A stretch of DNA of 34,953 bases from an uncultured Erysipelotrichaceae bacterium (GTDB lineage Bacteria > Bacillota_I > Bacilli_A > RF39 > UBA660), in contig CADBSF010000072.1 in NCBI GenBank assembly GCA_902797265.1, positions 1 to 34,953 of the forward strand, read 5' to 3'. A program made the translations under genes and the position numbers. The notes beneath the pieces are model-generated. The model was not told the DNA's origin and did not search any database. It saw nothing but the letters and a program-made list of their open reading frames with translations. The stretch's first letter is position 1. Every line of letters begins with the position of its first letter. Shown piece after piece: positions 34,617-34,953 of the stretch.

Positions 34617-34698
34617 TAATTCTTCTCGTCTTCTCTATTTTTTATTACTCCAATTGTATATCCAAATGTCTTATGAATTAATTCTTTCTGATTTTCAT
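34616..34698 (-). pseudogene. possible tiny frameshifted gene
   Basis: An ATG (34696-34698) with AAGGAA about 8 bases upstream reads only MKIRKN before TAA. Adding one A to the AAAA run after the ATG would open a 27-residue frame (KELIHKTFGYTIGVIKN) to TAA at 34616-34618. It may be a decayed gene, a sequencing slip, or chance. I do not recognise it. Confidence 0.25.
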
Positions 34699-34712
34699 AA
34701 CACACTTTCCTT

Positions 34713-34742
34713 ATAAATAAAAAAACTAGTCTTAGACTAGTT
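34713..34742 (-). terminator. strong terminator
   Basis: AACTAGTC (34724-34731) and GACTAGTT (34735-34742) form an eight-pair stem with a three-base loop, followed on the minus strand by seven T. It ends the candidate RNA described at 34713-34829. Confidence 0.8.
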
Positions 34743-34829
34743 GATTATAAATGGAGCAATTGTGTGTCTCGTTTGAGAAACAATTACATACAAATGTAAC
34801 GAGATAAAACTCAATTACATACTAAATAT
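34713..34829 (-). ncRNA. candidate structured small RNA or attenuator leader
   Basis: A minus-strand transcript of about 115 bases is framed by a TATAAT at 34835-34840 and the terminator at 34713-34742. It has no credible reading frame. It contains an 11-base direct repeat GTATGTAATTG (complement of 34781-34791 and 34812-34822) and helices that cannot all form together: TCTCGTT/AACGAGA (34798-34804 with 34767-34773), TTACAT/ATGTAA (34794-34799 with 34784-34789) and AATTGT/ACAATT (34780-34785 with 34758-34763). This is the layout of a switch or a small regulatory RNA. No known riboswitch class or Cas9 tracrRNA core was recognised. Confidence 0.45.
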
Positions 34830-34834
34830 ATCAC

Positions 34835-34840
34835 ATTATA
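34835..34840 (-). promoter_or_regulatory. -10 element for the candidate RNA
   Basis: Perfect TATAAT on the minus strand; the -35 about 17 bases upstream (TTTCAA) is weak. Confidence 0.45.
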
Positions 34841-34953
34841 GGGAAAGAGTAAATAACTTGAAAATGATAGATAGTGTTTCCAAAGTGGGGAGATTTATAA
34901 ATAATCTCTTTTTAAATCAATAAAAAAGGTTAAAACCTAAAAAATGCTTTATA
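34841..34953. other. right-edge intergenic stretch with two hairpins
   Basis: There is no gene in it. GAGATT (34890-34895) and AATCTC (34903-34908) with five T after it is a plus-strand terminator-like hairpin. AGGTT/AACCT (34927-34938) followed by T on the minus strand could be a short terminator for a gene beyond the edge. Confidence 0.4.

Follow-up and report, generated by a model that had tools for sequence, protein, structure and literature searches.

A putative element-end RNA of gut and rumen Bacilli, proposed as one half of a split attenuator for a large serine recombinase

What does a compact transcription unit near the end of a bacterial contig control, if it controls any neighbouring gene at all? 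The question is raised by the window analysed here, a stretch of 34,953 nucleotides from an uncultured Erysipelotrichaceae bacterium, in which a first-pass annotation had seen a candidate small RNA or attenuator with mutually exclusive helices. All pieces of that observation read on the minus strand, which carries the RNA from about 34818 to 34717 as a unit comprising an extended -10 element, a conserved 72-nt core and an intrinsic terminator. The promoter (34825-34853, minus strand), recognized by sequence and by conservation in 38 copies, consists of TTTACT at 34853-34848, a 17-nt spacer and the extended -10 TGaTATATT with its hexamer at 34830-34825, from which an RNA start near 34818 would be expected. 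The TATAAT that had been singled out is present at 34840-34835 on this strand, but homologues instead conserve TGaTATATT about ten bases further downstream. The core spans 34751-34822 (minus strand; 82% mean column identity in a 37-copy alignment, with copies from the R1 searches described below). The strong terminator is indeed there, as AACTAGTCTAAGACTAGTT-TTTTT at 34742-34724 (shuffle mean 0.0); its hairpin (34724-34742, minus strand, with the U tract running to about 34717) is a foreign intrinsic terminator of the AACTAGTC type, which also occurs after tRNA-Gly in locus L100. From the positions of promoter and terminator we infer the ends of the small RNA predicted for the integrated state (right-end RNA, class 1; 34717-34818, minus strand, ~100 nt). 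Its fold beats 200 of 200 dinucleotide shuffles (z -3.8), whereas that of the plus strand is weaker (z -2.35). The 11-base direct repeat GTATGTAATTG is exact at 34822-34812 and 34791-34781, 31 nt apart, and its last 10 bases would be expected by chance to find ~0.2 exact matches across the whole window.

A DNA search of relatives, followed by a sequence-only covariance model (R1) run on the genus and on 386 family genomes, yields 38 alignable copies and one palindromic variant in related rumen and gut Bacilli. The distribution is patchy, with strong R1 matches in 23 of the 386 family genomes. An exact 29-nt pattern from the 3' part occurs in 34 stretches among 84,980 species genomes; the sources are essentially all uncultured and mostly metagenome-assembled, labelled as Bacilli, Erysipelotrichaceae, Mollicutes or other Firmicutes, and many of the genomes are of ruminant origin. 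As for a phage origin, the same pattern has no exact match in 2.9 million viral contigs. Two signals flank the core in every copy: a TGnTATAAT-like extended -10 at a fixed distance before it (38/38), and a hairpin of terminator type in the 75 nt that follow it (38/38; shuffled mean 8, maximum 13), the hairpin sequences varying between copies. With its own promoter and terminator kept throughout in unrelated gene contexts, the window's integrated copy fits the stand-alone RNA that the first-pass annotation had offered as one option.

The core itself is conserved mainly as sequence. Internal pairs are kept at 91-93%, with covariation hardly above shuffles. All three competing helices described for the segment are present, but AATTGT/ACAATT is unsupported by covariation, and TCTCGTT/AACGAGA, with two compensatory cells, is 92.5% paired mostly because its sequence barely varies. 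The middle segment of the core is variable, with covariation no better than shuffled, and the 11-base repeat is specific to the window. The impression that the RNA belongs to no known class is upheld by Rfam, which gives no match in the window at or above gathering score, only chance-level ones, and on this ground a riboswitch or any other Rfam class is ruled out. A tRNA-like reading is attractive because the core ends U-CCA; we rejected it, as inspection of the alignment shows many copies with a disrupted 7-bp acceptor stem (GUAAUUG/CAAUUGC) and ARAGORN makes no call at the RNA. A CRISPR tracrRNA or repeat mimic was also set aside, the window having no CRISPR-like array and the sampled neighbouring proteins no Cas family match.

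In the window, the orientation and position of the unit would suit an attenuator or leader for the genes beyond it, a small broken frame and a GGDEF gene, and the first-pass annotation had proposed that it controls read-through to them. The relatives speak against this: neighbours differ from copy to copy, no GGDEF gene stands at this position in the other contexts listed, none of 38 congeners carries a close homologue of the window's GGDEF gene, and the competing helices on which the idea was built are not conserved as such. We find this explanation hardly credible. A leader of some other fixed downstream gene is rejected because the downstream genes vary and several are convergent. The broken frame (MKIRKN*, 34678-34698, minus strand, with AAGGAAAGTGTGTT before it), when compared with the left ends described below, probably derives by decay from the start of the small gene of another element. 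Beside it, at 34699-34725 of the window, is an ACTAGTC/GACTAGT terminator hairpin that recurs elsewhere in the genome and in relatives, often near contig ends.

The genomic context of the copies points elsewhere. A tRNA-Gly gene (UCC or GCC) lies upstream on the same strand as the RNA in 16 contigs, mostly at a distance of 0.4-10 kb and in one case about 32 kb, and a 17th contig has a truncated tRNA-Gly. The sole exception is the palindromic variant (L099, 6701-6769), in which an inverted copy of the 3' end, 22 nt long, stands in place of the 5' part and a tRNA-Gly of opposite orientation lies nearby; the sequences trailing that tRNA-Gly and the inverted site agree over ~40 nt. Between tRNA-Gly and RNA we observe a small gene of ~90 aa, a large serine recombinase (LSR; Resolvase and Recombinase domains, distant CcrB/XisF similarity), MobV/MobP-like relaxases and cargo, or just one reversed gene. 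Two or more RNAs stand in tandem in some arrays (L032, L081, L083, L087 and L096). Among the neighbours of the RNA are also a repeatedly seen, divergently oriented gene for a ~900-aa protein with no Pfam or NCBIfam match (L087 3470-6172; also L035 and L090) and, as adjoining cargo, genes for Fic-type proteins (L079 6480-7559 and, by similarity of its start, L100 5205-6284).

The tRNA-Gly genes and the RNA core both end in GCTCCA, the attachment core seen at element junctions (34752-34757 in the window, minus strand). A family-B left end follows tRNA-Gly in L179, while a near-identical copy follows a class-1 RNA in L191, with GCTCCA at the junction. Family-A left ends likewise follow either tRNA-Gly or one of four other unrelated right ends, each of which has its own TATAAT-like promoter and GCTCCA end. 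Since the same left ends follow tRNA-Gly or an RNA, we take the RNA gene to be an element's right end, and the RNA 3' end to be a putative attachment site that corresponds to the 3' end of the tRNA. The copies in relatives thus lie at the right ends of LSR elements and of small cassettes, stacked behind tRNA-Gly, that is, at a mobile-element end, an outcome that the first-pass annotation had named as counting against its proposal. From this context it is nearly certain that the segment is an element-end RNA and not a host attenuator. More specifically, and as part of the whole reading developed below, LSR elements and cassettes derived from them probably insert at the 3' end of tRNA-Gly in a family of gut and rumen Bacilli and have this RNA family as their right (distal) end.

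Each left end has the same order of a terminator, a small gene and the LSR gene. Close family-A LSRs (at least 85% identity) are found in 7 of the 386 genomes, 6 of these being RNA-positive. The small gene encodes a ~90-aa protein family that is always located between the leader terminator and the LSR gene (L028 9399-9671, with homologues in L031, L081, L084 and L085); it has no Pfam or NCBIfam match, and a fold model with pLDDT 88 has no PDB match better than E 0.7. The protein is a candidate directionality factor. In some elements, a leader segment between the terminator and the small gene is antisense to the anticodon arm of tRNA-Gly(UCC) and is accompanied by a recurring CTTGGAAG (L087 3197-3217, L081 5405-5437, L085 10776-10810, and contig C34 of the window's genome, G000, at locus L152). 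Related elements have other targets, namely tRNA-Cys, tRNA-Leu and tRNA-His (L174, L185, L205 and L208).

To compare the two ends of an element, left and right ends were paired by their position in assembled arrays. In family A, the left end contains GAGATAAArCTyAATT as the 5' arm of an intrinsic terminator directly before the small gene, and a segment near the 5' end of the RNA, AATTrAGnTTTATCTC, is complementary to this arm. The window's version, AATTGAGTTTTATCTC (34801-34816, minus strand), is our proposed antiterminator. In all 10 family-A elements for which both ends are known, the RNA/leader duplex is energetically more favourable than at least 498 of 500 shuffles. Terminator probabilities, which come from equilibrium folds only, drop in the joint fold to at most 0.10 in 7 of these 10 elements, while the other three stay at 0.54 because of a G.A mismatch. 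When preceded by tRNA-Gly, as in six family-A elements, the leader keeps its terminator at ~0.92-0.95. Joined to the window RNA, a family-A leader forms its terminator with a probability of at most 0.01, and the window's own terminator is undisturbed by the RNA (0.96 alone, 0.95 joined). A further contact appears in the predicted joint fold of L031, where TTACATTTGT (34790-34799 in the window, minus strand) pairs with UUUGUAAAA directly 3' of the leader attachment core. A leader C always meets an RNA G and a leader T meets A or G, the forbidden C/A combination being absent in 11 pairs; taken alone this is weak, with a calculated chance of about 12%. Homology among the pairs of any one family also keeps the number of independent cases small.

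The leader of family A2 is related, but its terminator arm, TGATTAAATCAAC, differs. In a blind scan with this arm, the top rank among 176 candidate right ends went to a site in the same array, where GTTGATTTAATCA is located shortly after TATATAAT and 50 nt before the end of GCTCCA, and further A2 loci, fetched via LSR homology, have the same segment at the expected place. The A2 terminator probability falls from 0.70-0.75 to at most 0.01 in 10 of 10 cases, compared to ~0.7 with shuffled right ends. Because the A2 RNA is otherwise unlike the window RNA, we conclude that arm and counter-arm have changed together. Family A3, inserted at tRNA-His, is a weak case: the match is shorter, the terminator probability is 0.30 joined versus 0.61 alone, and 44 and 19 of 300 shuffles do as well. 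Like the tRNA that it targets, its right end finishes in GGCCCCA. No cognate right end for leader types B3, B4, D, E and F turned up in the available contigs.

The remaining families bring in a different explanation, in which everything happens at the level of DNA: the core would be an attachment site with arms that bind the recombinase or an accessory protein, the promoter would simply read over the joined ends to drive the LSR gene, and the complementarity would reflect an inverted repeat to which protein binds. Left/right complementarity does occur in families B, B2 and C, and its arms lie symmetrically about GC^TCCA (14-15 and 6-7 nt), the arrangement that recombinase-binding arms should have. 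The terminator survives in most B joint folds, whereas B2 and C lose it. The conservation of the core by sequence more than by covariation would also suit protein binding. Because the arms of B, B2 and C are symmetric about the core, we count only A, A2 and, weakly, A3 for an RNA mechanism. In A and A2, however, the arms are asymmetric, at about 46-51 and 30 nt from the core, which places them beyond a usual LSR site of ~50 bp, and family A has a separate symmetric pair, ACGAGATACACAATTGC and the mirrored ACGATTTTTACAAATGG, at the core. In the window, the corresponding right-hand attachment arm is ACGAGACACACAATTGC (34756-34772, minus strand), with 11 of 17 positions mirrored by the left end (ACGATTTTTACAAATGG) about GC^TCCA. 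Moreover, it is in every case the 5' strand of the terminator that forms the complementary arm, and between A and A2 this arm has changed jointly with the right end. We therefore regard a purely DNA-level account as rather unlikely, and RNA-level antitermination in the circle as likely.

The reading we favour, and consider probable, is that the RNA is half of a split attenuator that switches on the LSR only when the two ends join in the excised circle. The right end would contribute the promoter and a short RNA, on DNA that ends in GCTCCA, and the left end a leader with its intrinsic terminator, the small gene and the LSR gene. The anatomy of the ends, the common attachment core, the conservation of promoter and terminator and the left/right complementarity can be read from the DNA; transcription, the joining of both ends in a circle and antitermination are what we infer from them. 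In the integrated state, a transcript through tRNA-Gly and leader would stop at the leader terminator, such that the tRNA transcript ends normally and the LSR is off, while the right-end RNA would run into a foreign terminator and become a dead-end small RNA. Upon excision, right-end RNA and leader would form one transcript, in which AAUUrAGnUUUAUCUC pairs with GAGAUAAArCUyAAUU and the leader terminator cannot form; thus disarmed, it would let the LSR be made for re-integration. The competing helices that matter would then probably be those of the RNA with its remote leader, rather than the three initially listed. The idea of an attenuator survives in spirit, but the genes it would govern are a remote small gene and serine recombinase at the element's other end, joined to it only in the circle.

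The window would represent the integrated, dead-end state, with the right-end RNA before a foreign terminator. The cargo and tRNA of this copy are out of view because the contig ends 131 nt upstream of the RNA core. The last 87 bases of the contig (34867-34953) match, at 93% identity, a sequence on contig C45 in this genome, where it lies upstream of an ABC transporter gene. The pattern search located a single tRNA-Gly in the genome, on contig C34, where another element's left end follows it, and no family-A LSR was found in the genome, which is 77% complete.

An RNA that is free, has a promoter and terminator of its own, exposes a complement to family-A leaders and occurs in several copies per array could also be imagined to act in trans, for example on leaders of family-A elements, whether resident or incoming, or, via the UGCUCCAU segment, on host mRNAs. 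The RNA is patchily distributed among the family genomes and always tied to element ends, and action in cis is enough because the pairing partner adjoins the RNA in the circle. We consider a trans-acting small RNA quite improbable as the main explanation.

State-dependent transcription of an integrase is known from ICEKp1 (NAR 2026, PMC13023037), as well as from ICEclc and ICEEc1, in which a promoter at the far end is used after excision. In ICEKp1, stem-loops in the integrase 5'-UTR attenuate tRNA-driven transcription, and the authors suggest, as an untested idea, that 15 bp of the far end may pair with one stem-loop (PMC13023037). The elements described here resemble ICEKp1 in their insertion at a tRNA 3' end, the recombinase gene adjoining the tRNA, the 5'-UTR stem-loops and the far-end promoter: tRNA-Gly, leader, small gene and LSR follow in order in relatives; an outward far-end promoter is recognizable by sequence in 38 copies, with TATAAT-like boxes at unrelated right ends; and sequence and fold place a terminator-like stem-loop between tRNA and recombinase gene. 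They differ in host phylum and element group, ICEKp1 using a tyrosine integrase. Here, furthermore, the predicted pairing involves an intrinsic terminator, each family has its own matching arms, and the unit at the far end survives in arrays as small RNA genes in several copies. In Tn916, terminator T1 insulates the integrated element, and the cis antiterminator canT overcomes terminators after excision (PMC11658703). The likeness lies in an insulating terminator in the integrated state and a cis-acting RNA element that would overcome termination after excision; unlike the short segment proposed here, which fits one terminator arm, canT is described as processive and acts on heterologous terminators. 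The ssrA islands of Dehalococcoides are serine-recombinase islands in tandem behind an RNA gene, with a repeat of its 3' end at each boundary, but the target is tmRNA, the repeat is 20 bp, and the parts of the report consulted describe no boundary promoter or RNA (PMC3146451). For TnpX of Tn4451/Tn4453, the title of the report indicates that the promoter itself is formed in the circle. Judged from the open part of the literature, novelty appears to lie in the group of elements, in the comparative support for matched arms and in the dead-end RNA genes that remain in arrays; because only this part was searched, absence from it is not proof of novelty. We know of no split terminator/antiterminator in Tn4451/Tn4453.

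How an integrating element senses whether it is chromosomal or free is a regulatory question to which these ends offer a concrete and testable answer, with the natural sequence swaps between A and A2 serving as ready-made compensatory changes. The pairing rule helps to match right ends to left ends in fragmented metagenome assemblies, and the split-end reading would account for a class of small RNAs that look like orphans downstream of tRNA genes. More tentatively, split attenuators may be a general device of mobile elements, with a terminator at one end and an antiterminator at the other such that only the correct circle expresses the recombinase, and the RNAs left in arrays may also wake same-family neighbours in trans.
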